This document shows, in pieces, positions 6,796 to 33,749 of a DNA stretch of 64,000 nucleotides. The stretch is from Chondrosia reniformis (Eukaryota; Porifera; Demospongiae; Chondrillida; Chondrillidae). The stretch covers positions 6,276,501-6,340,500 of the forward strand of contig OX359189.1 in NCBI GenBank assembly GCA_947172415.1. Reading direction: 5' to 3'. The position numbers and the translations under genes are program-made. Position 1 is the stretch's first letter. Each line of letters opens with the position of its first letter. The notes under the pieces were generated by a model. That model did no database searches and was not told the DNA's origin. It was given only the letters and a program-made list of their open reading frames with translations.

Positions 6796-7812
6796 TTAGA
6801 GGTTGCTTGATGGATCTTTTAAAAGATTTTCATTTACTACCAAACGTACAACCTCTAAGGCGCATCCCCAGGAGTAGGCAATTCCATTAGAAGAATGACC
6901 ATAATTGTGAATAATACACTTGTCTCTCTTTATCCTTATTAATTCTAATCTAATGGTATCTCTCCCTGGCCTGAGACCAACCCATTCATCCAGCACAGGA
7001 GCATCCTTTAGAGACGGCAAGACAGACTCTGCTCTTGCTGATATCCTTTCCCTTTGTTCTGGGTCCACTTCATAATCTTCCTTTCCTTTAATGGATACAC
7101 CACCAATATAAGTATCATTTACGCGAGGAAAAATATCTATTCCAGGACTTTCATTTGAATCAGTAAATATGGGACAGTTGATTTGCAGAAACTGCTTTAT
7201 CCATGGTGCCCTTCTTGACTGTGCTTGTCCCCACAAGGCATGCATTCTAGGATCTGGTACAAGCTCTCCTGATCCCAATCCAGTGCAATTGATGACTATA
7301 TTGCAGCTGTGTAGCAACGTATCTATATCATGGATTTTGGCTTTAGTAATACGACCTCCAGCTGACAGAAACTTCTTCATAAGAAATGGAAGATACAAAC
7401 GGCTGTCTACAATGTATAGACCACAGTATGAGCGGACAACTTCTGGTAATTTCATAAGGGTCTTTTCTTCTTCAGAAACCAATCTAAAACCTATGCTTGA
7501 ATCAATCTCTTCTCTGTCACAGTAACCGAAGCAAAATGTAACACCCGCTTCGGCAGCTTCCTCAGAGTTCCATAGTTTCTTGAAATGTTGCAGTGAATCT
7601 AGATACCATTTCCTTAACTGCAAGGCGTTCTCTCCCGGTTTTGCGTTGCGTGGGACTATTGATCCCCCAGCTCTATCACTCGTAGTGTCCGGGGTTATGT
7701 GTTCAGTAATGACAGAGACGTCCAGGTAAGGCAGTCTTTCTACTATACACACAGCAGTTGAAAGACCTGTAATCCCACCTCCTATTACTACTACCTTTAA
7801 ATCAGTCGTCAT
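6796..7812 (-). CDS. DDO: D-aspartate / D-amino-acid oxidase, intronless, peroxisomal
   Basis: FAD enzyme that oxidatively deaminates D-amino acids to 2-oxo acids, ammonia and hydrogen peroxide, normally in peroxisomes. 338 residues, close to the usual 340-350. The N-terminal dinucleotide fold is VVVIGGGITGLSTA (residues 7-20). GLRPGRDTIRLE near residue 280 carries the Arg that binds the substrate carboxylate, and HNYGHSSNGIAYSWGCALE is the C-terminal FAD signature. The last three residues, SNL, form a PTS1-type peroxisomal signal. The SNL end leans towards D-aspartate oxidase, but the acidic versus neutral choice cannot be settled by eye. The ATG at 7812 is followed at once by the FAD fold. 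The single-exon structure among intron-rich neighbours could reflect a retrocopy. A CACGTGACGT element lies about 40 bp upstream of the start. Confidence 0.92.
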   Translation of the reverse strand: MTTDLKVVVIGGGITGLSTAVCIVERLPYLDVSVITEHITPDTTSDRAGGSIVPRNAKPGENALQLRKWYLDSLQHFKKLWNSEEAAEAGVTFCFGYCDREEIDSSIGFRLVSEEEKTLMKLPEVVRSYCGLYIVDSRLYLPFLMKKFLSAGGRITKAKIHDIDTLLHSCNIVINCTGLGSGELVPDPRMHALWGQAQSRRAPWIKQFLQINCPIFTDSNESPGIDIFPRVNDTYIGGVSIKGKEDYEVDPEQRERISARAESVLPSLKDAPVLDEWVGLRPGRDTIRLELIRIKRDKCIIHNYGHSSNGIAYSWGCALEVVRLVVNENLLKDPSSNL

Positions 7813-8324
7813 TCTAATCTGATGTTGGACGGCTCAGGAACCCCATTCACGTGACGTTTCTATTAGGCGTACCGTAATGGTTGAAATTATATAAAGCGCC
7901 TCAGAAATTTTTTTTTATTCACCACAGGAAAGGGAATGATGCGCACAAATATGGAAGTGGTGTGTATGGTAAATATGAAAGTGGTGTGTATGGTAAATAT
8001 GAGGGTTATCCGTGTCACATGATCCCTACTTCAGCTATACCAGATCAGTTTTGCCAGATCAGTTTTGCTACCTCACTTTTAGAAATATAATTATTTTATT
8101 CTTATACGTATTTGCCAATCTCGGCATTGCCGATATTTAGGTGTAGATTATTGCGGTACGACTAGATACGTACTATTATTAATAGAGCAGATATTGGCAC
8201 AAGCTCTGACATCTCTACTCTGCACCACATCAAGACATGATTTTTTAATTATATATACTTCTGCAAGGTCCAACTGCAGGCATATGGAGGCACCTATAAA
8301 GGGGAGAGTGGAATTGATCATGCA
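7813..8324. promoter_or_regulatory. Divergent intergenic region between the oxidase and the tandem array
   Basis: About 500 bp between the minus-strand oxidase start and the plus-strand array head. It contains CACGTGACGT near 7849 (E-box overlapping a CRE-like TGACG), a two-copy 24-bp direct repeat at 7955-8003 (GGTGTGTATGGTAAATAT core), and TATAAA at 8295-8300, about 46 bp before the first ATG of the array. A bidirectional promoter is inferred. Confidence 0.5.
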
Positions 8325-11300
8325 CTACTTGAAAAGCAAAAAGAAATGAGGGCCGAATGGATCTACGCAGGTAAGTAATTGTTGGTGTCTATTTCTTCTG
8401 CATAAAGAGAAGCCGAAAACATAATGGGTTAGGGCAATGAGATCATCTCACATAATCTTCTCTTTTCTTCATTTGGTCTTATTATTACTACATGAAAAGT
8501 AAAAACAAATGAATGCCGAATGGATCTACGCAAGTTAGTAATTGTTGGTATCTATTTCTTCTTCTTCATAAAGAAAAGCGGAAACATAATGGATTAGGGC
8601 AATTGGATTATCCCGATCACATATTCTTCTCTTTTCTTCAGTTGGTCTTATAACTACATGAAAAGAAAAAAGAAATGAATGCCGAATGGATCTACACAGG
8701 TAAGTAATTGTTGGTATCTATTTCTTCTTCTACATAAAGAGAAGCCGAAAACATAATGGATTAGGGCAATGAGATCATCTCACATAATCTTCTCTTTTCT
8801 TCAGTTGGTCTTATTACTACATGAAAAGCAAAAAGAAATGAATGACGAATGGATCTACGCAGGTAAGTAATTGTTGGTGTCTATTTCTTCTTCTTCATAA
8901 AGAAAAGCGGAAACATAATGGATTAGGGCAATTGGATTATCCCGATCACATAGTCTTCTCTTTTCTTCAGTTGGTCTTATAACTACATGAAAAGAAAAAA
9001 GAAATGAATACCGAATAGATCTACGCAGGTAAGTAATTGTTGGTGTCTATTTCTTCTTCTTCATAAAGAAAAGCAGAAACATAATGGATTAGGGCAATTG
9101 GATTATCCCGATCACATAGTCTTCTCTTTTCTTCAGTTGGTCTTATAACTACATGAAAAGCAAAAAGAAATGAATGCCGAATGGATCTACGCAGGTAAGT
9201 AATTGTTGGTATCTATTTCTTCTTCTGCATAAAGAGAAGCCGAAAACATAATGGATTAGGGCAATGAGATCATCTCACATAATCTTCTCTTTTCTTCAGT
9301 TGGTCTTATTACTACATGAAAAGCAAAAAGAAATGAATGACGAATGGATCTACGCAGGTAAGTAATTGTTGGTGTCTATTTCTTCTTCATAAAGAAAAGC
9401 GGAAACATAATGGATTAGGGCAATTGGATTATCCCGATCACATAGTCTTCTCTTTTCTTCAGTTGGTCTTATAACTACATGAAAAGCAAAAAGAAATGAT
9501 GGATCTATGTAGATAAATAATTGTTGGTATCTATTTCTTCTTCTGCATAAAGAGAAGCCGAAAACATAATGGATTAGGGCAATGAGATCATCTCACATAA
9601 TCTTCTCTTTTCTTCAGTTGGTCTTATTACTACATGAAAAGCAAAAAGAAATGAATGACGAATGGATCTACACAGGTAAGTAATTGTTGGTGTCTATTTC
9701 TTCTTCTGCATAAAGAGAAGCCGAAAACATAATGGGTTAGGGCAATTGGAACATCTCACATAATCTTCTCTTTTCTTCAGTTGGTCTTATTACTACATGA
9801 AAAGCAAAAAGAAATGAATACCGAATAGATCTACGCAGGTAAGTAATTGTTGGTATCTATTTCTTCTTCTGCATAAAGAGAAGCCGAAAACATAATGGAT
9901 TAGGGCAATGAGATCATCTCGCATAATCTTCTCTTTTCTTCAGTTGGTCTTATTACTACATGAAAAGCAAAAAGAAATGAATGACGAATGGATCTACACA
10001 GGTAAGTAATTGTTGGTGTCTATTTCTTCTTCTGCATAAAGAGAAGCCGAAAACATAATGGGTTAGGGCAATTGGAACATCTCACATAATCTTCTCTTTT
10101 CTTCAGTTGGTCTTATAACTACATGAAAAGCAAAAAGAAATGAATGCCGAATGGATCTACGCAGATAAGTAATTGTTGGTATCTATTTCTTCTTCTGCAT
10201 AAAGAGAAGCCGAAAACATAATGGATTAGGGCAATGAGATCATCTCGCATAATCTTCTCTTTTCTTCAGTTGGTCTTATTACTACATGAAAAGCAAAAAG
10301 AAATGAATGACGAATGGATCTACACAGGTAAGTAATTGTTGGTGTCTATTTCTTCTTCTGCATAAAGAGAAGCCGAAAACATAATGGGTTAGGGCAATTG
10401 GAACATCTCACATAATCTTCTCTTTTCTTCAGTTGGTCTTATTACTACATGAAAAGCAAAAAGAAATGAATGACGAATGGATCTACACAGGTAAGTAATT
10501 GTTGGTGTCTATTTCTTCTTCTGCATAAAGAGAAGCCGAAAACATAATGGATTAGGGCAATGAGATCATCTCACATAATCTTCTCTTTTCTTCAGTTGGT
10601 ATTATTACTACTACATGAAAAGCAAAAAGAAATGAATACCGAATAGATCTACGCAGGTAAGTAATTGTTGGTATCTATTTCTTCTTCTTCATAAAGAAAA
10701 GCGGAAACATAATGGATTAGGGCAATGAGATCATCTCACATAATCTTCTCTTTTCTTCAGTTGGTCTTATTACTACATGAAAAGCAAAAAGAAATGAATA
10801 CCGAATGGATCTACGCAGGTAAGTAATTGTTGGTGTCTATTTCTTCTTCTTCATAAAGAGAAGCCGAAAACATAATGGATTAGAGCAATGAGATCATCTC
10901 ACATAATCTTCTCTTTTCTTCAGTTGGTCTTATTACTACATGAAAGCGGAATGGATCTACGCAGGTAAGTAATTGTTGGTATCTATTTCTTCTTCTGCAT
11001 AAAGAGAAGCCGAAAACATAATGGATTAGAGCAATTGGATCATCTCACATAATCTTCTCTTTTCTTCAGTTGGTCTTATAACTACATGAAAAGCAAAAAG
11101 AAATGAATGCCGAATGGATCTACGCAGGTAAGTAATTGTTGGTATCTATTTCTTCTTCTGCATTAAGAGAAGCCGAAAACATAATGGATTAGAGCAATGA
11201 GATCATCTCACATAATCTTCTCTTTTCTTCAGTTGGTCTTATTACTACATGAAAAGCAAAAAGAAATGAATGCCGAATGGATCTACTCAGGTAAGTAATT

Positions 11301-14300
11301 GTTGGTGTCTATTTCTTCTTCTGCATAAAGAAAAGTGGAAACATAATGGATTAGGGCAATTGGATTATCCCGATCACAGTCTTCTCTTTTCTTCAGTTGG
11401 TCTTATTACTACATGAAAAGCAAAAAGAAATGAATGACGAATGGATCTACGCAGGTAAGTAATTGTTGGTGTCTATTTCTTCTTCTTCATAAAGAGAAGC
11501 CGAAAACATAATGGATTAGGGCAATGAGATCATCTCACATAATCTTCTCTTTTCTTCAGTTGGTCTTATAACTACATGAAAAGCAAAAAGAAATGAATGC
11601 CGAATGGATCTACGCAGGTAAGTAATTGTTGGTATCTATTTCTTCTTCTGCATAAAGAGAAGCCGAAAACATAATGGATTAGGGCAATGAGATCATCTCA
11701 CATAATCTTCTCTTTTCTTCAGTTGGTATTATTACTACTACATGAAAAGCAAAAAGAAATGAATACCGAATAGATCTACGCAGGTAAGTAATTGTTGGTA
11801 TCTATTTCTTCTTCTTCATAAAGAAAAGCGGAAACATAATGGATTAGGGCAATGAGATCATCTCACATAATCTTCTCTTTTCTTCAGTTGGTCTTATTAC
11901 TACATGAAAAGCAAAAAGAAATGAATACCGAATGGATCTACGCAGGTAAGTAATTGTTGGTGTCTATTTCTTCTTCTTCATAAAGAGAAGCCGAAAACAT
12001 AATGGATTAGAGCAATGAGATCATCTCACATAATCTTCTCATTTCTTCAGTTGGTCTTATAACTACATGAAAAGCAAAAAGCAATGAGGGCCGAATGGAT
12101 CTACACAGGTAAGTAATTGTTGGTATCTATTTCTTCTTCTGCATAAAGAGAAGCCGAAAACATAATGGATTAGGGCAATGAGATCATCTCACATAATCTT
12201 CTCTTTTCTTCAGTTGGTATTATTACTACTACATGAAAAGCAAAAAGAAATGAATACCGAATAGATCTACGCAGGTAAGTAATTGTTGGTATCTATTTCT
12301 TCTTCTGCATAAAGAGAAGCCGAAAACATAATGGATTAGGGCAATGAGATCATCTCGCATAATCTTCTCTTTTCTTCAGTTGGTCTTATTACTACATGAA
12401 AAGCAAAAAGAAATGAATGACGAATGGATCTACACAGGTAAGTAATTGTTGGTGTCTATTTCTTCTTCTGCATAAAGAGAAGCCGAAAACATAATGGGTT
12501 AGGGCAATTGGAACATCTCACATAATCTTCTCTTTTCTTCAGTTGGTCTTATTACTACATGAAAAGCAAAAAGAAATGAATGACGAATGGATCTACACAG
12601 GTAAGTAATTGTTGGTGTCTATTTCTTCTTCTGCATAAAGAGAAGCCGAAAACATAATGGATTAGGGCAATGAGATCATCTCACATAATCTTCTCTTTTC
12701 TTCAGTTGGTATTATTACTACTACATGAAAAGCAAAAAGAAATGAATACCGAATAGATCTACGCAGGTAAGTAATTGTTGGTATCTATTTCTTCTTCTTC
12801 ATAAAGAAAAGCGGAAACATAATGGATTAGGGCAATGAGATCATCTCACATAATCTTCTCTTTTCTTCAGTTGGTCTTATTACTACATGAAAAGCAAAAA
12901 GAAATGAATACCGAATGGATCTACGCAGGTAAGTAATTGTTGGTGTCTATTTCTTCTTCTTCATAAAGAGAAGCCGAAAACATAATGGATTAGAGCAATG
13001 AGATCATCTCACATAATCTTCTCTTTTCTTCAGTTGGTCTTATTACTACATGAAAGCCGAATGGATCTACGCAGGTAAGTAATTGTTGGTATCTATTTCT
13101 TCTTCTGCATAAAGAGAAGCCGAAAACATAATGGATTAGAGCAATTGGATCATCTCACATAATCTTCTCTTTTCTTCAGTTGGTCTTATTACTACATGAA
13201 AAGCAAAAAGAAATGAATACCGAATGGATCTACGCAGGTAAGTAATTGTTGGTGTCTATTTCTTCTTCTTCATAAAGAGAAGCCGAAAACATAATGGATT
13301 AGAGCAATGAGATCATCTCACATAATCTTCTCTTTTCTTCAGTTGGTCTTATAACTACATGAAAAGAAAAAAGAAATGAATGCCGAATGGATCTACACAG
13401 GTAAGTAATTGTTGGTGTCTATTTCTTCTTCTGCATAAAGAAAAGTGGAAACATAATGGATTAGGGCAATTGGATTATCCCGATCACAGTCTTCTCTTTT
13501 CTTCAGTTGGTCTTATTACTACATGAAAAGCAAAAAGAAATGAATGACGAATGGATCTACGCAGGTAAGTAATTGTTGGTGTCTATTTCTTCTTCTTCAT
13601 AAAGAGAAGCCGAAAACATAATGGATTAGGGCAATGAGATCATCTCACATAATCTTCTCTTTTCTTCAGTTGGTCTTATTACTACATGAAAAGCAAAAAA
13701 AATGAATGACGAATGGATCTACGCAGGTAAGTAATTGTTGGTGTCTATTTTTTCTTCTTCATAAAGAGAAGCCGAAAACATAATGGATTAGGGCAATGAG
13801 ATCATCTCACATAATCTTCTCTTTTCTTCAGTTGGTCTTATTACTACATGAAAGCCGAATGGATCTACGCAGGTAAGTAATTGTTGGTATCTATTTCTTC
13901 TTCTGCATAAAGAGAAGCCGAAAACATAATGGATTAGAGCAATTGGATCATCTCACATAATCTTCTCTTTTCTTCAGTTGGTCTTATTACTACATTAAAA
14001 GAAAAAAGAAATGAATGCCGAATGGATCTACACAGGTAAGTAATTGTTGGTGTCTATTTCTTCTTCTGCATAAAGAAAAGCGGAAACATAATGGATTAGG
14101 GCAATTGGATTATCCCGATCACATAGTCTTCTCTTTTCTTCAGTTGGTCTTATAACTACATGAAAAGCAAAAAGAAATGAATGCCGAATGGATCTACGCA
14201 GGTAAGTAATTGTTGGTATCTATTTCTTCTTCTGCATTAAGAGAAGCCGAAAACATAATGGATTAGAGCAATGAGATCATCTCACATAATCTTCTCTTTT

Positions 14301-16135
14301 CTTCAGTTGGTCTTATTACTACATGAAAAGCAAAAAGAAATGAATGCCGAATGGATCTACTCAGGTAAGTAATTGTTGGTGTCTATTTCTTCTTCTGCAT
14401 AAAGAGAAGCCGAAAACATAATGGGCTAGGGCAATTGGAACATCTCACATAATCTTCTCATTTCTTCAGTTGGTCTTATAACTACATGAAAAGCAAAAAG
14501 CAATGAGGGCCGAATGGATCTACACAGGTAAGTAATTGTTGGTATCTATTTCTTCTTCTTCATAAAGAAAAGCCGAAAACATAATGGGCTAGGGCAATTG
14601 GAACATCTCACATAATCTTCTCATTTTTTCAGTTGGTCTTATAACTACATGAAAAGCAAAAAGAAATGAGGGCCGAATGGATCTACGCAGGTAAGTAATT
14701 GTTGGTGTCTATTTCTTCTTCTTCATAAAGAGAAGCCGAAAACATAATGGATTAGAGCAATGAGATCATCTCACATAATCTTCTCTTTTCTTCAGTTGGT
14801 CTTATTACTACATGAAAAGAAAAAAGAAATGAATGCCGAATGGATCTACGCAGGTAAGTAATTGTTGGTATCTATTTCTTCTTCTGCATAAAGAGAAGCC
14901 GAAAACATAATGGATTAGGGCAATTGGATCATCTCACATAATCTTCTCTTTTCTTCAGTTGGTCTTATTACTACATGAAAAGAAAAAAGAAATGAATGCC
15001 GAATGGATCTACGCAGGTAAGTAATTGTTGGTATCTTATTACTACATGAAAAGCAAAAAGAAATGAATGACGAATGGATCTACGCAAGTAAGTAATTGTT
15101 GGTGTCTATTTCTTCTTCTTCATAAAGAGAAGCCGAAAACATAATGGATTAGGGTAATGAGATCATCTCACATAATCTTCTCTTTTCTTCAGTTGGTCTT
15201 ATTACTACATGAAAGCCGAATGGATCTACGCAGGTAAGTAATTGTTGGTATCTATTTCTTCTTCTGCATAAAGAGAAGCCGAAAACATAATGGATTAGAG
15301 CAATTGGATCATCTCACATAATCTTCTCTTTTCTTCAGTTGGTCTTATTACTACATGAAAAGCAAAAAGAAATGAATGACGAATGGATCTACGCAGGTAA
15401 GTAATTGTTGGTATCTATTTCTTCTTCATAAAGAAAAGCGGAAACATAATGGATTAGGGTAATTGGATTATCCCGATCACATAGTCTTCTCTTTTCTTCA
15501 GTTGGTCTTATAACTACATGAAAAGCAAAAAGAAATGAATGCCGAATGGATCTACACAGGTAAGTAATTGTTGGTGTCTATTTCTTCTTCTGCATAAAGA
15601 GAAGCCGAAAACATAATGGATTAGGGCAATGAGATCATCTCACATAATCTTCTCTTTTCTTCAGTTGGTCTTATTACTACATGAAAAGCAAAAAGAAATG
15701 AATACCAAATAGATCTACACAGGTAAGTAATTGTTGGTGTCTATTTCTTCTTCTGCATAAAGAGAAGCCGAAAACATAATGGATTAGGGCAATGAGATCA
15801 TCTCACATAATCTTCTCTTTTCTTCAGTTGGTCTTATTACTACATGAAAAGAAAAAAGAAATGAATGCCGAATGGATCTACGCAGGTAAGTAATTGTTGG
15901 TATCTATTTCTTCTTCTGCATAAAGAGAAGCCGAAAACATAATGGATTAGGGCAATGAGATCATCTCACATAGTCTTCTCTTTTCTTCAGTTGGTCTTAT
16001 AACTACATGAAAAGCAAAAAGAAATGAAGGCCGAATAGATCTACGCAGGTAAGTAATTGTTGGTGTCTATTGCTTTTTCTTCATAAAGAGAAACCAAGGG
16101 TTAGGGCAATGAGATTATCTCACATAATCTTCTCA
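8325..16135 (+). repeat. Tandem array of about 49 splice-site-bearing exon-intron units (about 160 bp each)
   Basis: I located 49 copies of the junction GCAG|GTAAGTAATTG or variants, the first at 8371 and the last at 16049, mostly 160-167 bp apart. Each unit has a pyrimidine tract ending CTTTTCTTCAG, an exon-like block of 58 bases starting TTGGTCTTATTAC and ending GGATCTACGCAG, then GTAAGT and an intron-like part of about 105 bases. Only four copies have damaged donors (near 8533, 9512, 10165 and 15088). Block variants are 41, 58 or 61 bases. In one frame the block is open and reads LVLLLHEKQKEMNAEWIYA; the other two frames stop. No open frame of 60 codons or more exists anywhere in the array. 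The last unit loses the acceptor and grades into unique sequence after 16130. It could be a satellite born from an exon-intron duplication, or a transcribed RNA array. Confidence 0.95.
8346..8370 (+). CDS. Possible first coding exon at the head of the array
   Basis: TATAAA at 8295-8300 is followed by ATG at 8346 and eight codons, MRAEWIYA plus one base, ending at a perfect donor GTAAGT at 8371. The preceding sequence (GAAAAGCAAAAAGAA) already matches the repeat unit, so this may be the ancestral exon from which the array grew. Splicing into the next block would give MRAEWIYAVGLITT and a stop; reading into the intron stops after MRAEWIYAGK. A real protein product is doubtful. Confidence 0.3.
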
Positions 16136-17775
16136 TATCTGTGTGATGAGAGCCAAGGAAAATTGCATCAAGATACATCAGCTGAGGGAGGATGACAATT
16201 CTTATGCAACTTCACGAGAATGAGCCAGGGTTTTCGGTAAAATGTGACATTGGAGGATGTAAAAAATCTTATCAAATGTACTACTTTTTACTGCACTCAT
16301 GACTCACTTCATTCAAATGTAACCTTTTATACATAGCAGTCCAAACCGATCTGTAAACATGTTATGTCAGGATTTGTGTATTCATGATTCGCTGTGTTAA
16401 GAACAATTGGAAACAATTTAATTTGCTTAATACTACTCCAATTATCCTTTAACATGACTCAACTCAAATGTAGACTTGCTTCTTACAGCCCGCACAGCGG
16501 AGCTGCTTTAACTCACGCATCCTTAAACTGATAGCGCCGCGCGCTTACGGACTATTTACCGAGGTTATCCGTGCTTTCAATGTGTGTATAGTATAAGTCA
16601 GACTATGTAGCGCACAAATTCCCCTCTGATATTCAGAAAGGAAGGAATATTTTTCAGTAGCTATAATATACAGAAAGAACCAACACGATAATTTCAACGA
16701 TTAATAATGATAGTTAGCATCCTTACATTGGGCAGATGACTTGGAAAATCTGACAGTACGCGTATCTCCACTTCTTAAGAAGAATACATTTGTACACCAA
16801 ACCAGTATGAGAGAGACGCATGCATGCACAGACTTGAATGGCTAACTAAACAGCACGTTGACGGCATCAATTCCTGTCGCGAAAATGGCGCTGAAAGTCA
16901 CGTGACAAGCGCAATCCTTGCTTTATAAAAATTGGACAAACAGGAGTCAGAGCATGCTGTGTAATAGGTAGTATATGTATAGTTATTTTCATTTTTCTAT
17001 ACTATTGTATAAATAATTCATTGTAAAATTTCAGATGTATTCAGCTGCCCTCACCATTTAAACGATATACTTTTATACAATGCTTATAATAAATGTTTAT
17101 AATTATATAATCAAACTCTACCAAGTTTGACCTCCATTTGCTAAGAAACAAAGAGACCTAATTATAACACTTTTTCATTTAGAATTCTTAAACTTTCAGA
17201 AATTTATTAAAATCTCTATATAGATTGGCATGGGTCATATGAACCTCCTGCCTGTGAATTATGGCAACCAGTATAATTTATATTGTCTTATGAGGTACGT
17301 AATTAGTTATATTATATAGGCATCTATTTTAATTATATGAACAGGTAGTTTTAAGTGTATTAAGGGTATATACGTATATATATGGGTCAAAAATAGAAGA
17401 TATTAACTTCTTGTACATTGTCATGTGGTAGGATGACCTCAAGCTCTCCCACACTCAATTAACACAGAAAGGATATACATGTCCCACACACATGTGAGTA
17501 TATATAATTGTCGATGAATTGTATCTTGTTAAGAGAACCCGCATGGTTTCACTCTCTATACAGCTAATGGTTGTGTGCACATATATACAAATATCCATTA
17601 AAATTTTGGTCACTGTAGCAAATCAATATATATACAAAAAATGTATATGTAAGTCATTGATGTTATGACACAAGTAGTAGACCATAAAACAGTGTTCATG
17701 TGCATGTGCATAATAGTCTTAGATCATTAATAATTACCATCCCTTTACCTCATGATTATGTCCTGTACTTATAAA
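16136..17775. other. AT-rich intergenic stretch, no gene recognised
   Basis: No family match or splice chain was found. 16160-16200 has a short open segment (MRAKENCIKIHQLREDDNS) that echoes the MRAEW start of the array, then a stop. 16500-16560 is locally GC-rich (GCGCCGCGCG). 16885-16930 combines AAAATGGCGC, GTCACGTGAC and CTTTATAAAA, which could be a promoter, but no convincing downstream exon follows on the plus strand. Confidence 0.4.
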
Positions 17776-18660
17776 GTGTTTTATGTAAAGGTCATTTGAC
17801 TCACCATGTGTGCATGAAATGACACAATCTCTATATTCATGAACTAGATATTACATAACCTCAGTTCACCCACACTTAGACATTGAATTATCTGTATATA
17901 TGATAATTTTATATTTCTAGCAATAGAGTACAGATTGTGTGTCCACATGACATCTGTTGAAATGGATTGAGACTGTCTCCAGGATGTCGTACAGAGGAGG
18001 GTTTGCGGTCAGCTGTAATTAGATGACATCCGTCCATATGAGACACAAGACTACAGGAGGTCCGGATGGGGGAGGGTTTGCGGCCTACTGTAATGTAATC
18101 AGAAGACACTCAAAGACATTATTATTTGTCACAGCGGAGTACTTCTATATATAGTTTATATAACAGTGATTGAGGCCTCAAGCTGAGAATACCTAATGTA
18201 TCATAACATGCAGCAAGTTTCATTTCAAATGACATGGGCCAGAGGCTATATATATACGTATATACTATATACAACACATGCAACATGACATCATTGATAT
18301 ACATATATGTATATATGAAGGAATAAGGAGTGTTTGGTGTGATCATTATGAGAATAAAGCCTTATTGAGTGTCAGCAACATAATTCTAGACGTTTCAACC
18401 CAGAGGTCTTCATCAGCAATATACGTATGAAGAATGGGAATACAAGCCAGTTTAAATAGGAAAGGGTGTGACATTTGGTGATGTTAAAAGGTGCGTCGAA
18501 TATTTATGAAGATAAAGAAATGATTTAGTTAATGAATGGGTAATCAGTAGACTGAATAGAGTATTACTGAGCTAGTATATACATATGTACATTAAATAGG
18601 TGGCTATGTTTCAGCTTAAAAATTAAGGTACTAGCGTTAAGCAAGCTTGAAGCAGCTATT
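17776..18660. repeat. Dispersed repeat, copy 1 (interrupted by an insertion)
   Basis: Nearly identical to 26904-27530. Both copies start GTGTTTTATGTAAAGGTCAT and contain two internal copies of GGAGGGTTTGCGG about 70 bp apart. Homology holds to about 18250, weakens, then resumes at about 18570 (GTACATTAAATAGG, then the CTTGAAGC region). The 18345-18570 stretch is absent from copy 2 and contains a hammerhead-like element. The two copies flank the M13 peptidase gene in direct orientation. Type of repeat unknown. Confidence 0.8.
18363..18420 (-). repeat. Dispersed hammerhead-like short element
   Basis: Minus strand: ATTGCTGATGA, GACC, a TCTG loop, GGTT, GAAACGTC, a spacer, TGTTGCTGACACTCAATAAG. 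It sits inside the stretch that interrupts repeat copy 1 but is missing from copy 2, which is direct evidence that the segment was inserted after the duplication (or lost from copy 2). Confidence 0.65.
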
Positions 18661-19218
18661 TTACACTATATGTGTCTATATAAGGGGTCATTTTATATTT
18701 TCCAACCAACATGCATGCATGTACATGAATGTATATGGTTGTCCATCAATAATTACATGCCTATACATGTATGTAGACTAAGCTTAAGCCTGTAAGACAA
18801 AATTCCTCATTTTTGTATGTACTGTTCATATGTACATGTGTACATACGTATGTTAACTTACATATGTATATATACTAGCTTTTAATATAGCTGTTCTGAT
18901 TTGCTGATCTATACATACATACATACCTGTCTGCTATTTAAGATGGATAATATGGTAATTTTCACACCCTGTTTATACACCATTTCAATTTAAGCGCACA
19001 GGAAACGTTAATGTACAAAAACTGGCATTAAAAGCCATTTCGTAAATTGAAGAAAGCGGATATTACAGATAAGCCATTTCTAATATTACAAATACACTTC
19101 ACTCAGAAAGATATACTATAATTCCTATTCTATGTAAAAGAATAAACGTTTGGAGTATCTCTATTCAAAGCATGTAAAGTAATATTAACTTCGACAAGTT
19201 AGTAAACTAATTCACTAA
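18661..19218. other. 3' flank of the peptidase gene
   Basis: AT-rich, with many TATGTA/TACATA runs. No exon, RNA gene or repeat with a second copy was recognised. It should contain the 3' untranslated region of the minus-strand peptidase gene. Confidence 0.4.
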
Positions 19219-22200
19219 TCACCAGATGTTACATTTCTTTTCTGGGTTGTACCTAGCACCAGCTTTGCAATTAAATGTCTGAGCAAACTCTTCATTATTA
19301 GATACTGTTCCCAAGACCCTTGAAATGTAAAAAAATAATAGGTGAAACAGATAAGGACATAATTAAAATCATGTAAGTTTTTACATGTGTGAAGAGACAA
19401 AACTATGATAATTTGCGGGATCTCTGTTTGTTTGTTCATTCGCAAACTCCACCTTTGAATTGGGCGCCATCAACCTGGAGTGCCCCAAGGGGGTTGGCAT
19501 TTTCTTTTTAGCCTTTCTTCACCAATTTGGCCTTACTTCCATTATTCAAAAATGCCATTTTTGCCATGGATGTACACGGTTGTTGTGGAATTAAGATTCA
19601 CACGTAGTTGAACAGTAAGTACCACGTCTGTAGGGTGGGTTCTCCTTATCTCGTATGGTTAAATTTATTTAGTACTTATGTATAATCTGAATGGACATTA
19701 AATTTATCTAGTACTTATAATCTGAATGGACAATCTATAAATATACATTTTTAGTGAAGAATAATAATGCCCCTGTATTAGTTACTATGGTATCTTATGC
19801 ATAATATTAAATAGTGTTCCCTTTTGTGTATATCTGGTACAGTAAATACAGTATTGAGAATGAATGAACTATTTAGATAATTAAAAATATGTATGTATAC
19901 TAAAAACAAATATTCTAATACATCAGAAAGATGGTTTGCTTACCTGATTGGTCCTGGGCTGTGGACATCAGATAAAGCTGCCTGCAGCCCCGCTTGACTA
20001 AATTTACTGCAATAAAGCTAGATAACATGAAGAAATTACTTCAATTAGCTTGTAAGGTGGACAAAATTTACTGTAAGTATATAGGCATACAAACTCCTAT
20101 ACGCCGGTACTTGTATAATATCTGTTAGAACAAATATTTGAACAATATAATATATACCTGAGCATAAGCTATATAGAAGAGCTGGTCCTGGGTATACTTC
20201 TCACTCAGGATTGGGAGATCAAAATTCCTTCCGCGTCCAATTCTATTCTTATAAGCCTGGAATACAATGATAGATTCCTAACATCTAACTACTCCATGCA
20301 AAGAAAACTACAAAACATGACCAGATTTTATACGTACCCTAAAACTGGTCTCTAAGCCTCCTGAATCTGCTATATTTTCACCAATTGTCAATTGACCATT
20401 AACCTACAGTAGACATAATATATATAACAAAATTTACATGTACATATATGTATGTATATAAAGTATAAACACCATTGATACACTATTATAAAATGTAAGC
20501 TGTTGTAATATAAATAGTTTTATATAAAAAAAGTTAACTAAACATATTAAAAATACACAATTGATGTCATAACAGATGAACTGTTGTAAAGTATTATTTA
20601 GCTGGCCTTTCTGGGTTGGATACAAGCAAATGAAAAAGGACATATACTCCTCCTTTGCTGAGACTTTGGATGACCTCTGCAATATATGTAGTTAAAAATA
20701 AGCCAGGAGGCTGTGTTTGACCTATGTAGATTAACGGCTTGATTGCATCGGACAAGTCACTTGGAGTCGGACTAATTGGGCGAGTTCTGAGAAGGCTCAT
20801 TGATAAGGCTGTATTCACTCAAACCTCTAATTACATGCAGTGAGAATGCTGCAGCTTTGTGTAAGTCATTTGAATGGATGCAATCCATGAAGAACTATAT
20901 ATGAAGACCCAACACACTGAAGTTCTGATGCTCATTGATGCATCTAATGCATTTAATTCCATTAAGGGGGAATCAGTACTAAGGAATGTGCAAGATCTAC
21001 ACCATGTATAGTGTACTTGCACCAATACTTACTGATAACTCATTCAATTTGTAGTTATTGTACTGATCTACAAAACATGATACTCTCTCATCAAAAGCCT
21101 TTACAGAATCATTGGTCCACCACATTCTACGATTGCCATTGAGGTCAAACTGTCTTCCTGCATTAACATGTTCACTTATCACTCACTCATGTTAATATAC
21201 GTAGTTATTATAATCAGATTGAACAGCAATATTCATGCATGCATTTTTAAAATATAGCATTCACTCTTCTATATATAGCATGCGTTTTAATCAGGTACGT
21301 ATATATAGTATAACAGGGAGTCTTGTGAAAATGCTTTACATCTCCGTTATCTCATTTCATATTATGTGTGTAATTAATTTCATCTTACCATTAGTATCAA
21401 ATCCATGAGTGAGTTCATGGCCAGTTATAGCTCCAATGGCACCGTAAAGGTAGTAGCTACATTTTAGTGGAGAAACCTTCACTTCAGACTAAGCTTAAGA
21501 ACAGAAACAAATTATCAACTACTAACTCACTCAGGCCAACCTGCTCTAAATGCTGGTGAATGTAATATTCCTTCCAAATAGACTATCATATGTAAAGCAC
21601 AAGAATGAATATATCAGTTGAGGTACAATAATATTAAAGGTATAGACTCACCAAACTCATTCAAACTTGCATAATAGAAGGCATTTAGAAATGTTGGCGG
21701 ACTATAAAGGGTTATTCTAGTCCATCTGGAGAAAAGAACAAAAACATCTATAACGGTAGGTTCTGAAGATTTATTTAAATCTGCTACACATTTCCATTTA
21801 AGCAGATACCTATACTTACAGTGTGGCATTTACTGGGACTGTAAGAAAAAATTTGAATTCGTTTTTTACAGTAAGTCTTTGAGTGGATATAAAGTTCTGA
21901 ACAAGTGTGGATTCATTTGGATTAACCTAATGATATAAAAAGTACTCTTATAATATTCATATCAATGCATTCCTATATTGTAATTCAAACTGAAGATAGC
22001 TGTACTAGTGTCATTAATTCTTTTACTCACATCAGCATAGAAGTTATTCAGATATTCATCATCAAATATTTCATCAGGATAAGCAATTCTGTGATTTACA
22101 GCATTTACCTTGAGAAAGAGCACAATATACATACAAGTTTACAGTTATTGTGCAACATATAGCATTAATATAGACCATAATATAATTTAAGTCTAATATA

Positions 22201-25200
22201 TTTGCTGCATGTACGTATATTCAAATTAACACCTATAATTAAGAGTAATAAATAAACTGCAATACGGAGCATTATAATTGATGAATATATACAGTAAATT
22301 CCTTTTTCTCAATAGGCTAAATCAATGTTTTCAGGAATTTCACCCAATTGCCATTTTTGCCATAAAGTCTTAACAATAAACGTATACTAAAAAGAGCTTG
22401 CACTATCCCAATTAATATACCTCTATAAGTTTCAATCACAAACTATGTACATACGTACGTATAGGATAATCTATCTGGATTGTGGTAGAATCTCTCAGTA
22501 GATCTATACTCATGACATTTATACTGAAAACACTAAACTGTTACCATCCTAACTCTTCAACTAATACGTATGTATATGTGCCAACCAACTGAACTCTTTA
22601 AAAAAAAAGAATTATTTTGCTTTGACCTGTTTAATATATTATACATATGTAAACTGTTATAGTAAAAATATTGCTTGTGAGGCTTCCTTCAGCTTGCACA
22701 CATAGGTTATACGTACGTAAGTGGCTTAAGAATGTGGTAAAAGTAGAGTACCTTATCAATAACTGCTTGCCTGGTCTCCTCATCAAGCCAGTCATGCTGT
22801 CTGGTACGTTGCTTAAAGGCAGTCATGATATCAGTGACCATCTCAGTTAGCTATAAAAAGTAGATAATACTTTTAATCTATACTTGTCCAGTTAAATCTC
22901 TAATTCTCAACAAATCACACATGAATATATACATACATGTATCTTTTATATACGTAGAACAGCTGGCTGCTTCGCAAAGTATCACATAATTGCATGTCTA
23001 TTCATATCTATATATTTCATGATTCACCAAACCACTTACAACAGTTCTTGTTCCTGACTGTACTTGTGAGGGAGTATACAACCTTGAGATGGCAAATGGT
23101 AGCTCAGTAGTTACAAGTTTGACACAAGATAGCTTGCCACTCAATCCAAAATTGGTAAATACACTGGCAAATTCACCTCCCAAAAAAGGGATGAAATTCT
23201 TCGCAACTATCCACTTTGCATAGTTATTGAGGGTGCTAATACAAGTTTAGAACAATCACGTCCTGCCATGCAATGCTGAAGGTGGGTATGTACGTACATA
23301 GGTTGCTCAGCCCAAAAATGTCATATATAGAAAGGTAGACCATGTACTCACAACTAAGATCCCACTGTGCTAGAAGGCCTTTTTGGAGAATACCTAATCA
23401 GTAGCACTGGGTAGCGTTCTATAGAGTCAGTAAGTTACCTAGTAACCCAGACTTTTGAAAGAAATTGGTTATTATAACTTAGCAAGTCTACTACATCTAC
23501 ATTCTCTAATGCAGTGGGACATTCTAACCTTAATATGATGTAAGGTACGTAAATATTTGTTGCATACCGTACCCCATATTTATGACATGTAAACCTTTTT
23601 CAGTATCGATCTTAGCCTATAAGTTGGAGGCCTAAAATGCTGTTGTGATGGTGAGACAAGAATAGAGGGGTACAATATATGCCAAATGTTTAATCCTTAC
23701 CTTGCAGGAGTATTAGTTACTAAAGTAGTTAGATTACTCAAGTAACCTTGATCTGTTAATTGAAAGATGGAATCATCAGTGAATATATTAGAGCTAGCTG
23801 AACCAGTGACTGCAGTAAACATAGCTTTGAAATATGCCAACCAATCAAGCTGCAAGAAATTAAATTAGTATCATGATCAATGATAGTTTATGTACACATA
23901 TATATACACATATAGATGTACGTACATATGTACGTACATATGGCATATTATTCAAATAAAATATAGCTGACTATATACAGTGACAACTGCAATGTATTAT
24001 ATATATAAGTGAATCCAAAAAAAGATGACATTACTTTAGAAGTTTACCTCTGGAATCTGAAATTGCTCTGTTAATTGCCGAATTGATAGATGTACAATTT
24101 TAGACTTAGTAGAGAGCTTCATAATACAAAGAGAGTTAGGTTACTATACATGTGATGTATACGTACATAAAAAACATCTATTACCTGAATAAGCTTCGTC
24201 TCAAAATCAATTACATCATTCATTGCTGCTGTAATAACAGTCATATTGCCAGTTTTTCCTCCAAGAAGATACACAGAGTTTGTCATGTATGTTAACAGTC
24301 TGCTCCTTAACTGTAAATAAAGTACGTAGTTATATACGTAATTGCAGAATGATTGAAATGAAGAGTTTCAAGTGTTTTTTGCCCTTGAAATTAAAACTTA
24401 CCACTGGAGTTTGATAGGCTATAGCAAGGTCTGCTGAAATTGTTGTTCCACTTGGCTTCAGCTACGTATATTCATGTAGAAATACATAAAACATTAGTCA
24501 ATATAAAGTATGCCATCAAAACCTACTCGAAAGGTTGGATTTGTTGCATCTATATCATCAATTGCTATCTGGTAAGCAAAAAATGGCTTCAAATTATCTC
24601 TTCCACTCTTTCCAGGTTGATGAATATGGTAATTAGCCAGCTGACTGAAGCTAAATGAATTTTCAGGTATAATATTAGCAAGAGCCCATCCACCTAGTTC
24701 ATCTCGTATAAAGTTGACCAAAGGGGCACCGCCTACACAAAAAGGGCAATCACATTTATAATTAGCATTTTATCTAAATTTATAATTTAATTTATACTAA
24801 ATCAATCACCGAGATACATGGTGTGTAGAAAACTACTCACTCAGTAATAAAGTTTAAAACTTAGTACTAATCTTACCGATATAAACTCATGCCCTCACCT
24901 GCAATATTAATCGCAGTCTGATTATTACAGCTGTCAAAGAAGCTTTTAGCTTTCCTCACTGCGTTTACATCAGTACTTTTAACTTCTGACAAAAGATTCT
25001 CAATTGCTAGATCATTTTGAGGATCAATTTCAAAGAGCCCTCCTACCTGCACTGTAATAAAAATAAACAACATTCAGCTATGGCCTGCATGCATGGTGGC
25101 CCATGGTATCTCATAACTATCATTCAAAAATGTATGTGAAGGAGCAGATGTGAATGGAATTTTTGATTATAGTTTATATTTAAACATCTAGTCTTCATGT

Positions 25201-26696
25201 ACAAATTCACCTCTTACTTATGTAAACTTATGAATTTGGTTGTGGGGGTAAAGTGCCAGAACATTAACACTCTTATTAGTTCTTTTCACATATTCATATT
25301 ATGTACATACAGTAGCCGATTTTAGTATTAAAGCAAGCCTCTCGTAATATAAGAGATTTTTTGGTTTTTGGAGACACTTCGGCAACAAATTCTTCTGATT
25401 CTATCAAATCTTCCAAATAATTCCTACAAACACAGTCTTCTCTCTCCAGTCCCAAACATCCACCTTATTTGAGCCTCAGCCTAGCTGAACCTTCAAAAGC
25501 TTAGCTACTAAGCTCCTAGCTTCTCTCTTCCTTATTTAACACTCTGTTTTATATCTCCTATCCTATCACACATATCCTTGCTACTTCCTTTTAGTACATT
25601 TTTATTCCATTCATTTTTCAATTTCCTTTCATCATACCAGGTCCTACTAATGATCCTACTCCGGTCCATTTGCTATTTGTTTAAGGGTTACTGTCAAAAG
25701 GCTCCAGTTTTCAATTACTTTGCTAATATTCTTATTCCAATTGCTTATCCAAGTTCCTATTAAATAGTCAAATACCTATCCTTCAACCTATACCAGTACA
25801 TCAGTAATCTTACTTACTTGTACTCTAAATCTGGCTGGTAACCATTGACTCACTATTCCCAATGCAGTGAGTGGGTTGTGGATGTTTACTCCTATACATC
25901 TGAGGACTCTGTTCTGTACATTATCTATAATCCCAAGTAGAGTCCCCCCAAACCCCTACCTCATAGTCAATTACGGAGGAGACTAATACTTCAAACAATC
26001 TCAAAAAGAGCAGGAACTGCAAATCTATATACCATTGCTCTGACATATATTTGCACTTAGAGCTCTTTTTGGCTTTTTGCATACGGTCTTTGCAATTGAT
26101 CATCATTTTACAATCTAATCTTCACTTAATGGGATTCATAGGTACTGGTAACTATACCACTTGCCACTTTATTACTACACTTTAAAATTGGTTGTGGCTC
26201 TTGCTTCTGATATGTATAATGTAGCTGATTTTTCATTATTAAGTTAAACTATAGACCTTAACTACTATTTACTTACGAATGTATAAAATGTATGTATATT
26301 ATATACCTGTGGAGCCAGCTTATTATTTAACTAACCGGGTGGTTCAGGACGTGTTCTCTCCCAGTTACGGCAGCTAAAGTTATAAAAATCTTCACAAGGA
26401 TCAATACTCTCATCCAAACTGTTGATGACCAACGAAGCAAGGTTTACGCAATCTGGAGTCAAGCACACGTTGCTACTGGAACTGGATTGTGAGCTAGAAG
26501 CAGCCGCGTTGTTAGCTTGCGCATAGAGAGCAATAAAGACTATCAGGAGGATCAGGAGGAGAGCCAGAATCACAGTAGTAACAATGCCATAGAACAAGCA
26601 CCATCTTCTCATATTCGACGGCTTAAAGGGTTTCTTCATGTTATCAAAGGCGGAATCTTTGAAATTTGCACCTTTGACTTCATAGGAATCTGCCAT
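19219..26696 (-). CDS. M13 family zinc metallopeptidase (neprilysin / endothelin-converting enzyme-like)
   Basis: Type II membrane ectopeptidase that cleaves extracellular peptides. Exons: 26336-26696, 24899-25051, 24527-24732, 24402-24461, 24185-24310, 24048-24116, 23701-23849, 23040-23235, 22752-22850, 22031-22108, 21820-21926, 21652-21725, 21531-21582, 21389-21456, 21033-21157, 20338-20403, 20158-20256, 19944-20017, 19219-19318. They sum to 2262 bases, 753 residues, the normal family size. A cytoplasmic tail is followed by a membrane segment at about 34-58 and a Ser-rich linker, then CLTPDCV and DPCEDFYNFSC. NAFYY precedes the zinc site GHELTHGFD (His590, Glu591, His594); GENIADSGG supplies ligand Glu650. 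DVHSPGPIRV has the catalytic His and Arg, and the end CNIW is typical. The stretch after CRNWERTRPEPP is about 25 residues shorter than usual, so a small exon may be missed. Confidence 0.93.
20690..20995 (+). pseudogene. Degenerate reverse-transcriptase fragment in a peptidase intron
   Basis: Antisense to the host gene. Frame pieces read GLIASDKSLGVGLIGRVLRR, LIDKAVFTQTSNYMQ, and, after stops and a shift, TEVLMLIDASNAFNS with LRNVQDL. DASNAFNS followed by a leucine-rich helix is a reverse-transcriptase palm motif. Several stops show it is dead. It appears to be from the same element type as the fragment at 29736, which covers the next part of the palm. Confidence 0.7.
25320..26108 (-). pseudogene. 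Non-LTR retrotransposon 3'-region remnant in peptidase intron 1
   Basis: Minus strand reads LFEVLVSSVIDYEVGVWGDS then, after a one-base shift near 25930, DNVQNRVLRCIGVNIHNPLT and WLPARFRVQ. The pattern VQN(K/R)V..R..GV matches the region after the reverse transcriptase of LINE-like elements. Further minus-strand pieces to about 25320 (NYLEDLIESEEFVAEVSP) probably belong to it. Not part of the peptidase. Confidence 0.6.
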
Positions 26697-26903
26697 CGTT
26701 GTTGCTCCGAATCAAAGATTAGAGGCTTAACGGTAACGCCTTAACTAGCGCTTTTATACAGAGGAGGGCTTCCTGTAGGGGCGGCGTAGGAGGATATTTG
26801 CCCCACCCCCGTGAAATGACCTCTGGGTGGCAAATTTCCTATAAATATATAACTAATTTAGATCATTATTAAGTTACCTCATTACTGTATCCTGTAATAC
26901 CCT
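26697..26903 (-). promoter_or_regulatory. Likely promoter region of the peptidase gene
   Basis: The 200 bp before the peptidase ATG is the only GC-richer stretch nearby (GGGGCGGCG near 26778 resembles an Sp1 site). The repeat copy begins directly behind it at 26904. Promoter function is inferred from position only. Confidence 0.3.
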
Positions 26904-32124: not shown

Positions 32125-33749
32125 TTACACATCTGTGATATTCTCTGGTTCTAAAGGTACATCTCCTTCACCGGGTTGTTCTGAAAGAACATCTCCTTCA
32201 CCAGGTTGTTCTAAAGGAACCTCTTCTTCACCAGGTTGTTCTAAAGGAACCTCTTCTTCACCAGGTTGTTCTGAAGGAATGTCTCCTTCACTGGGTTGTT
32301 CTGAAGGAACATCTCCTTCACCGGGTTGTTCTGAAGGAACCTCTCCTTCACCGGGTTGCTCTAAAGGAACCTCTCCTTCACCGAGTTGTTCTGAAGGAAC
32401 CTCTCCTTCACTGGGTTGTTCTGAAGGAATATCTCCTTCACCGGGTTGCTCTAAAGGAACCTCTCCTTCACCGGGTTGTTCTGAAGGAATGTCTCCTTCA
32501 CTGGGTTGTTCTGAAGGAACCTCTCCTTCACCGGGTTGTTCTGAAGGTACATCTTCTTCACCGGGTTGTTCTGAAGGAACATCTCCTTCACCGGGTTGCT
32601 CTAAAGGAACCTCTCCTTCACCGAGTTGTTCTGAAGGAACCTCTCCTTCACTGGGTTGTTCTAAAGGTACATCTCCTTCACCGAGTTGTTCTGAAGGAAC
32701 CTCTCCTTCACTGGGTTGTTCTGAAGGAACATCTCCTTCACCGGGTTGTTCTGAAGGAACGTTTCCTTCACCAGGTTGTTCTGAAGGAACGTTTCCTTCA
32801 CTGGGTTGTTCTGAAGGTACATCTCCTTCACCAGGTTGTTCTGAAGGAACGTTTCCTTCACTGGGTTGTTCTAAAGGTACATCTTCTTCACGGTGTTGTT
32901 CTGAAGGAACATCTCCTTCACTGGGTTGCTCTAAAGGCACGTCTCCTTCAGCTTGTTCCTGTTCCATAGATGTGTTTGGTTCTGCTGCAGCAATTATTAA
33001 ATTTGTTTTAGAGTCGCTTTTGTCATCTGTTGAAGTTGCAGGTTCATCTGCTTTTCCATTGTTAATATTATCTGTAACAGCAGATGTTTCATGAGTTGAT
33101 CCCTGAATACCACCCTTATTCATTTGGATAGAATCAGCCACTCCTAATGTAGGTGAATAGAATACAGTAACCCTACACTAAACAGACCTAGGACAACCTA
33201 TATTACGTAGTTTACAATCTCAAAAAGAGATGACATAATTACTTAATAGTACATAAAATGTCTACAACTGATCCTGTAGGCCAAGCTTCCATCTCCAGCG
33301 GCAGAAAAATGAAAATGCTTTATGGATTGCAGACACCAAATAAGGATGCATGAGCTCACAATAGTATCAAAATTAAGCACCCTGGCCCTGGACTGCTCAG
33401 CGCCAAAGCGCTGTAAAGAAACATTACACAAGTTTTAAAGTATCTTAATATCATGTTCTCGACTCAATTTGTTTACCAATAGAAGCTAACACACCATTCC
33501 GGGCTTTCAGTTTGTTTTCAAAATATTCCGCAGCAAACTGAATAATGTTTTCAGGCTGATACCTCAGAATTTCGCAACATAGATTTTCCAGTACATTTTC
33601 AAATCCAAAAGGTATTCTTAATTCTAATTGTAAAAGAGGTATATATACACATACGTAACTTTGCCTTTCAATGTATATAAAATTAAAAATCAATGGTCAG
33701 GGCGATCAACCTTATGTGCGAATCACAACTCACTAGCAGGGGCAGCCAT
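32125..33749 (-). CDS. RIIa-domain protein (SPA17/CABYR-like) with 10-residue tandem repeats
   Basis: RIIa domains dock to A-kinase anchoring proteins and to radial-spoke and fibrous-sheath proteins of cilia and sperm tails. Exons: 33734-33749, 33477-33623, 32125-33143; total 1182 bases, 393 residues. The ATG at 33749 gives MAAPA, then KLRIPFGFENVLENLCCEIL and RYQPENIIQFAAEYFENKLK, the classic RIIa helix pair. The third exon starts with a linker (VADSIQMNKGGIQGSTHE) and then about 27 copies of a 30-base unit encoding EQPGEGDVPS with S/L and G/S swaps, up to TAA at 32125. A donor-like GTGTAAGC overlaps the stop, so an extra exon is possible but not needed. It lies 282 bp upstream of NuSAP on the same strand. 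SPA17 has an IQ motif at its end; none is visible here. Confidence 0.85.
32150..32955. repeat. 30-bp coding minisatellite
   Basis: About 27 exactly phased 30-base units, so regular that two units fill each 60-base line. Variation is mostly in synonymous or S/L and G/S positions, and higher-order blocks of several units recur (compare 32281-32460 with 32491-32640). Length is probably polymorphic. Confidence 0.95.

Follow-up and report, generated by a model that had tools for sequence, protein, structure and literature searches.

Analysis of a 64,000-nucleotide window of the sponge Chondrosia reniformis (C1:6276501-6340500, contig C1 being 10,409,357 bp long) showed a large tandem array, here called array 1, whose units resemble a short exon followed by a short intron. 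Array 1 occupies 8324-16134 of the window on the + strand and comprises 49 donor-bearing units, each about 163 bp long, arranged head to tail as in a satellite. Tandem Repeats Finder, run on the window, gave a period of 163 over 8324-15036 and 15034-16134, and steps from donor to donor were 146-166 bp, with 163 commonest and a single step of 71 bp. An earlier note on this DNA had described about 49 units with splice signals, a perfect U1-type donor in about 45 of them, an acceptor in nearly all, and a 58-base exon plus an intron of about 105 bases; the counts agree with this description throughout. The exact donor CAG|GTAAGT is found at 45 of the 49 donor-equivalent sites, and AG terminates 46 of 47 acceptor positions (43 with TTCTCTTTTCTTCAG, 2 with TTCTCATTTCTTCAG and 1 with TTCTCATTTTTTCAG). 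Segments from acceptor to donor (n=47) measure 58 nt in 36 cases, 61 nt in 5, 41 nt in 4, and 50 nt and 57 nt in 1 each, and an example unit at 9300-9462 (+) consists of a 58-nt 'exon' (9300-9357) and then a 105-nt 'intron'.

The four deviant donors read CAA|GTTAGT (exon end 8533), TAG|ATAAAT, CAG|ATAAGT and CAA|GTAAGT. The first belongs to the 5' edge and the other 3 are all internal to the array. At this edge the first complete repeat 'exon' (8473-8539, +) lacks both sites, with CAA|GTTAGT as donor (8531-8539) and CAT as acceptor (8470-8472), the sole non-AG acceptor of the 47, yet the donor preceding that exon is perfect. Unique sequence enters the first unit at 8280-8370 (+) and ends in this first CAG|GTAAGT; it can be read as an open exon of 30 codons, with a counterpart at the paralogous locus described below only for about 8323-8373. 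At the 3' edge, the last unit (15991-16134, +) keeps an intact donor, and unique sequence takes the place of the next acceptor. One internal unit is fused (14959-15192, +): this 234-bp segment lacks the greater part of one intron together with its acceptor, and the donors at 15022 and 15093 that flank the missing part are separated by the 71-bp step.

The donor 9-mer CAGGTAAGT has only 1 occurrence outside array 1 in 256,100 sampled bases on both strands, and chance occurrence in this genome therefore does not explain the motif. Because CAGGTAAGT is rare in the sample, the unit that bears it is unusual and probably descended from a genuine exon-intron boundary. In addition, all 47 tandem-repeat rows of period at least 40, which overlap one another and come from twenty 10-kb stretches of contigs C1-C6, were without CAGGTAAGT on both strands.

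A second array of the same family, array 2, was found on C1 at about 9.143 Mb, some 2.85 Mb from array 1 and in the opposite orientation, with a period of 165 and 12.1 copies. Genome searches covered 117,379,552 bp in 15 contigs. The search with the array 1 unit missed array 2 and returned only the array 1 locus; array 2 was reached through a search with the 3' flank, which led to C1:9142461, and was then matched by its own unit as query. The earlier note had proposed looking for other arrays of this unit; array 2 is a paralogous array of 12 units. A third, more diverged array may escape such unit searches. A profile of both arrays' units gave no match at E up to 10 in 200 kb of sampled background, where blastn gave only two chance-like matches (17 and 20 bp). 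A 23-bp unit, repeated in 5.4 copies, forms a further small array between array 2 and its 3' flank (L017, 3311-3444 of the reversed join), and the tandem-repeat listing of the window reports no row of this 23-bp type beside array 1.

Array 2 is the strongest evidence of this analysis. Its acceptor positions read CTTCTG in 12 of 12 units, with AG in 0 of 12, and its donors (n=12) are TAG|GTAAGC in 6, TTG|GTAAGC in 1 and TAG|GCAAGC in 5. CAG|GTAAGT is found in 0 of 12, and GC replaces the donor GT in 5 of 12. The splice sites are thus not conserved in the paralogous array, contrary to what would be expected of an array selected for splicing. The consensus units of the two arrays agree at 131 of 166 columns; splice positions match at 19 of 24 and other positions at 112 of 142, and 108 of 166 shifts do equally well or better. 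For the donor itself, 6 of 9 positions match, and 151 of 166 shifts are equal or better. Hence, the 'conserved splice sites' of the earlier note hold for the letters within array 1 and fail in its paralogue.

These data bear directly on a possible function of the + strand RNA, as a sink for U1 and U2AF or as a source of mini-exons, circles or lariats, by which selection would keep the sites of array 1. Such a function would fit the perfect U1-type donors in 45/49 units and the acceptors with pyrimidine tract and AG in 46/47, and also the observation, detailed below, that variants at splice positions seldom spread. However, the signals are absent from array 2, the splice positions agree no better between the arrays than the remaining ones do, and the diversity of the donor GT is not low. 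We consider such a function improbable, and the functional readings of the earlier note (decoy, tiny exons, circles, lariats) find no support in the comparison of the two arrays.

A control on the wrong strand leads in the same direction. The antisense acceptor-like 9-mer TTCATGTAG has 47 occurrences in array 1 and 12 in array 2, and its 11-mer form, TTTTCATGTAG, 43 and 8, respectively. In array 1 the retention of TTCATGTAG is about that of the sense acceptor and, unlike the sense acceptor, it is also kept in array 2. Since an antisense motif is about equally retained, high retention within an array is no mark of splicing. Moreover, 49 mutually copied units are not 49 independent observations.

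Some of the splice-like letters may be older than the separation of the arrays. AG|GTAAG is present in the first unit of each array, as CAG|GTAAGT at 8368-8376 in array 1 and, by eye, as AAG|GTAAGA in array 2, in a unit that is not one of the 12 counted donors. This suggests that the common ancestor of both arrays also carried AG|GTAAG.

Mean unit identity was 0.916 within array 1 (45 of 48 segments, after removal of the fused one and of two at the edges), 0.919 within array 2 (11 complete units) and 0.739 between the arrays. Identity of about 92% within arrays against 74% between them indicates concerted evolution, and the fallback of the earlier note, a young duplication preserved by homogenisation, gains support from the same figures; its caution that the conservation might stem from homogenisation alone was justified. 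At 17 of 176 columns the arrays have no base in common, and polymorphism is shared at 4 of 176. Array 1 also shows traces of unequal exchange or of duplicated blocks. Besides the fused unit, a block of 782 bp at 10166-10947 (+) is repeated exactly at 12276-13057 (+), an offset of 2110 bp or 13 units, and similarity between units is highest at this spacing (0.937) among offsets of 1-29 units. This block is the longest of 15 exact repeat pairs of at least 200 bp, and 19 pairs of units are identical.

We think it likely that array 1 is a locus-specific satellite with a splice boundary captured at its birth and homogenised since, with no selection for splicing on each unit. In this model, tandem duplication would have affected an ancestral segment that reached from the last part of an exon-like sequence through its 5' splice site into the intron-like sequence behind it. 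Unequal exchange and the duplication of blocks would then have enlarged the array, and concerted evolution would maintain its uniformity. Donor and acceptor letters would persist through copying from unit to unit, rather than through selection of each for splicing. The whole locus would have been duplicated to give array 2 at C1:9.143 Mb, which would have been homogenised towards a different unit, with no AG acceptor and with a donor that is weaker or lost. The origin from an exon-intron boundary, the copying mechanism and the lack of a splicing function in array 1 are what we infer from the data as a whole.

Variation within array 1 was compared between 24 splice positions and 139 other positions, using the same 45 of 48 segments and 163 circular shifts or windows as reference. 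Mean diversity was 0.029 for the donor 9-mer, 0.043 for the donor GT, 0.011 for the last 15 acceptor bases, 0 for AG and 0.083 for other positions; circular windows of the same size were equally low in 45, 103, 10 and 80 of 163 cases for these four elements. Polymorphism affects 5 of the 9 donor positions, and 88 of the 139 non-splice positions are invariant. Donor and acceptor jointly are matched by 11 of 163 shifts. A variant of any kind was seen at 7/24 splice and 51/139 other sites (85/163 shifts), or at 7/24 and 33/139 when substitutions alone are counted, and mutation hits splice sites about as often as other positions. In addition, diversity is higher in the 'exon' (0.106) than in the 'intron' (0.056). 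Together with array 2, which lacks the signals, these values contradict the argument of the earlier note that a plain satellite would not keep such signals. That note had also regarded GT and AG diversity equal to that of the remaining positions as a sign against function. What was found comes near to this, GT and AG jointly having a mean diversity of 0.022, with 63 of 163 shifts as low, although variants of splice positions do spread less.

This reduced spread is one of several points that weigh against the satellite reading. Variants present in at least 2 units are found at 2/24 splice and 45/139 other sites (Fisher 0.011; 15/163 shifts), those in at least 3 units at 1/24 and 36/139 (Fisher 0.011; 14/163 shifts), and those in at least 5 units at 0/24 and 23/139 (Fisher 0.019; 11/163 shifts). 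With substitutions alone the Fisher values for the three thresholds become 0.194, 0.126 and 0.057, the last with 0/24 against 17/139. The last 15 acceptor bases rank among the most uniform 15-base windows (10/163 as low), and so do the 16 bases starting at the donor GT (8/163 as low). The longest invariant stretches are TAATTGTTGGT, which runs from the last base of the donor into the intron, and AAACATAATGG in mid-intron. We take the reduced spread of splice-position variants as a weak hint of constraint in array 1. Moreover, the absence of the sites from array 2 is no proof of an idle array 1: a function kept by array 1 could have been lost from array 2, and the change could have run from AG to TG or from TG to AG.

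According to such a scenario, array 1 alone would be spliced, with signals gained or kept relative to its sister array, and nascent RNA with 45 strong donors and 46 acceptors might titrate U1 and U2AF or yield tiny exons, lariats and circles. We see only a slight chance that this is so. If it were true, the two loci would constitute a natural experiment with and without the signals.

Coding tests gave no sign of a protein-coding role for the array 1 exons. Frame 0 is open in 24 of 47 exons and no frame is open in 22 of 47. Variants in frame comprise 11 missense, 4 nonsense and 3 silent changes, compared with 126:15:30 for all possible single changes, and purifying selection on a coding frame is not seen. 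Mutually exclusive coding exons like those of Dscam, or clustered poison exons belonging to a coding gene, might nevertheless be considered, with frame 0 open in about half of the units and a segment length of 58 that is not a multiple of three. Mutually exclusive exons commonly have lengths not divisible by three. However, the proportions of stops and missense changes are close to neutral, there are five different segment lengths, the presumed flanking exons have no protein homologue, and nothing of the upstream exon outside the unit itself is found again at the paralogous locus. Docking and selector pairing also found little to build on: reverse complements of four unit motifs, allowing up to 2 mismatches, gave one weak 2-mismatch match (17868) in 7800-8330 and 16136-18000. 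We regard either arrangement as very improbable. A coding gene around the array was likewise tried and rejected. The presumed upstream exon joined to the presumed last exon matched nothing in solved structures, protein searches gave no candidate, and Pfam gave no match above cut-off (one sub-threshold, E 0.093); the presumed upstream exon, as said, is not matched at array 2 outside the unit.

Tandem genes for RNAs of the spliced-leader type, with a short exon and a donor and no need of an acceptor, are another conceivable source of such an array, to which the tandem arrangement and the invariant stretch TAATTGTTGGT from the last base of the donor would correspond. An invariant leader exon and a stable RNA fold were not found. 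The exon is the more variable part (0.106), the single unit tested folds no better than its shuffles (z -0.30), and the window has no Rfam match at gathering thresholds. Spliced-leader genes are in our view hardly credible here. As a structured or known RNA in general the unit was also rejected, given no Rfam match at those thresholds, no transfer RNA and the ordinary fold of the one unit.

The two loci share more than their arrays. The 3' flank of array 1 at 16269-16909 (about 640 bp) has about 64% identity overall, and 74% over 16269-16472, to a counterpart from C1:9141960 onward; a weaker match extends back to 16175, and two copies were found in the genome. At the far end of this flank is a 35-bp block (16875-16909) that is identical at the other locus (C1:9141966-9141996, minus), and the genome contains its 31-bp core exactly twice when up to 3 mismatches are tolerated. 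The block contains CACGTGAC and AAAATGGCGC, which presumably resemble E-box and YY1 sites, and looks like a promoter by eye. It may be the part of the locus under selection, and may start a transcript in either direction. On the other side of array 1, an open frame of the DAO family, a flavin adenine dinucleotide-dependent oxidoreductase (6796-7833, -; Pfam DAO E 1e-35), points away from the array with its presumed ATG about 0.5 kb off. The neighbour of array 2, about 0.6 kb off and also pointing away, is a TPR-repeat gene (Pfam TPR_2, E 3e-7), which we take to be TOM70-like.

This arrangement raises the alternative that the duplicated functional unit is a minus-strand transcription unit driven from the block at 16.88 kb, with the array transcribed in antisense or serving as upstream region of the DAO gene, and with the splice sites meaningless. 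The detected homology between the loci stops at the 35-bp block on one side and in the first unit on the other, and the core of the block is found at these two loci only. Moreover, each array is upstream of a gene so oriented (DAO; TPR-repeat), some 0.5-0.65 kb from its presumed start codon, and TTCATGTAG is retained in both. However, the block was identified as a promoter by eye only, and it could drive the opposite way or be an enhancer. We regard a minus-strand unit as rather unlikely.

Further repeats and frames were seen in the window and in the background sample. To the right of array 1 are pieces of a peptidase M13 gene (19215-26711, -), of which 20997-21182 has a Pfam E of 4e-7 and 26331-26711 is below cut-off. 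An uninterrupted open frame of 4420 residues at 49311-62573 (-), presumably for a sacsin-type protein, adjoins a frame with a PARP domain (48596-49243; Pfam E 5e-19). A 30-bp repeat of 26.8 copies (32148-32950) lies inside a minus-strand frame of 350 residues rich in EQPGEGDVPS-type repeats, and an 18-bp minisatellite, CTCACTCTCACGTGCGCC, has 17.6 copies at 1765-2082. In the background sample, one 10-kb stretch (L049) holds many of the tandem-repeat rows, with periods of 40-224 bp. Units of L032:6809-8580 (period 169 bp) and L041:1-1083 (170 bp), on contigs C1 and C3, look related by eye, and the two arrays may represent a satellite family dispersed in this genome. The L041 array carries GGTGAG six times on one strand.

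With the satellite reading preferred, array 1 combines striking letters with a most likely cause that is ordinary. It gives a clean example of how homogenisation can mimic selection: 45 perfect donors in 49 units look like strong constraint, and a single paralogous array removes most of the argument for it. If array 1 is transcribed, the paired arrays, of the same family and on the same chromosome, can serve as a probe of how the cell handles dozens of competing splice sites.

The literature found on related ideas does not name array 1, in searches that were not organism-specific and with most subscription papers outside reach. As in other locus-specific satellites or minisatellites, array 1 has head-to-tail units, block duplication, and identity that is high within and low between paralogous arrays. 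Unlike the usual ones, its unit holds a full 5' splice site, a pyrimidine tract and AG on one strand. Exons of the Dscam type diverge while coding is kept, whereas the units of array 1 remain similar with no coding frame preserved. Array 1 and the mutually exclusive clusters of this type (PMC4835542) both line up dozens of similar exons.

New splice sites can also arise when a tandem duplication includes intron and exon signals, as in a known case that resembles array 1 in this respect. That case is a single event in a coding gene whose new intron is spliced; here there are 49 units known from their letters only. A 31-bp variable number tandem repeat of CBS reportedly spans a splice boundary. 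In human CBS 844ins68, a short duplication includes a splice boundary and several copies of a site compete, as in array 1, although the copies there number one or a few and belong to a known coding gene (PMC2630376). Another apparent parallel (PMC6692358) was set aside, for its splice sites are in a microRNA hairpin, apart from the variable number tandem repeat. Array 1, with no reading frame kept and known from sequence alone, differs from the IR1 repeats of Epstein-Barr virus, which resemble it as tandem units with exons (W1 and W2) and introns. IR1 units are transcribed and spliced, and W1 and W2 encode the repeat domain of EBNA-LP (PMC5834210).

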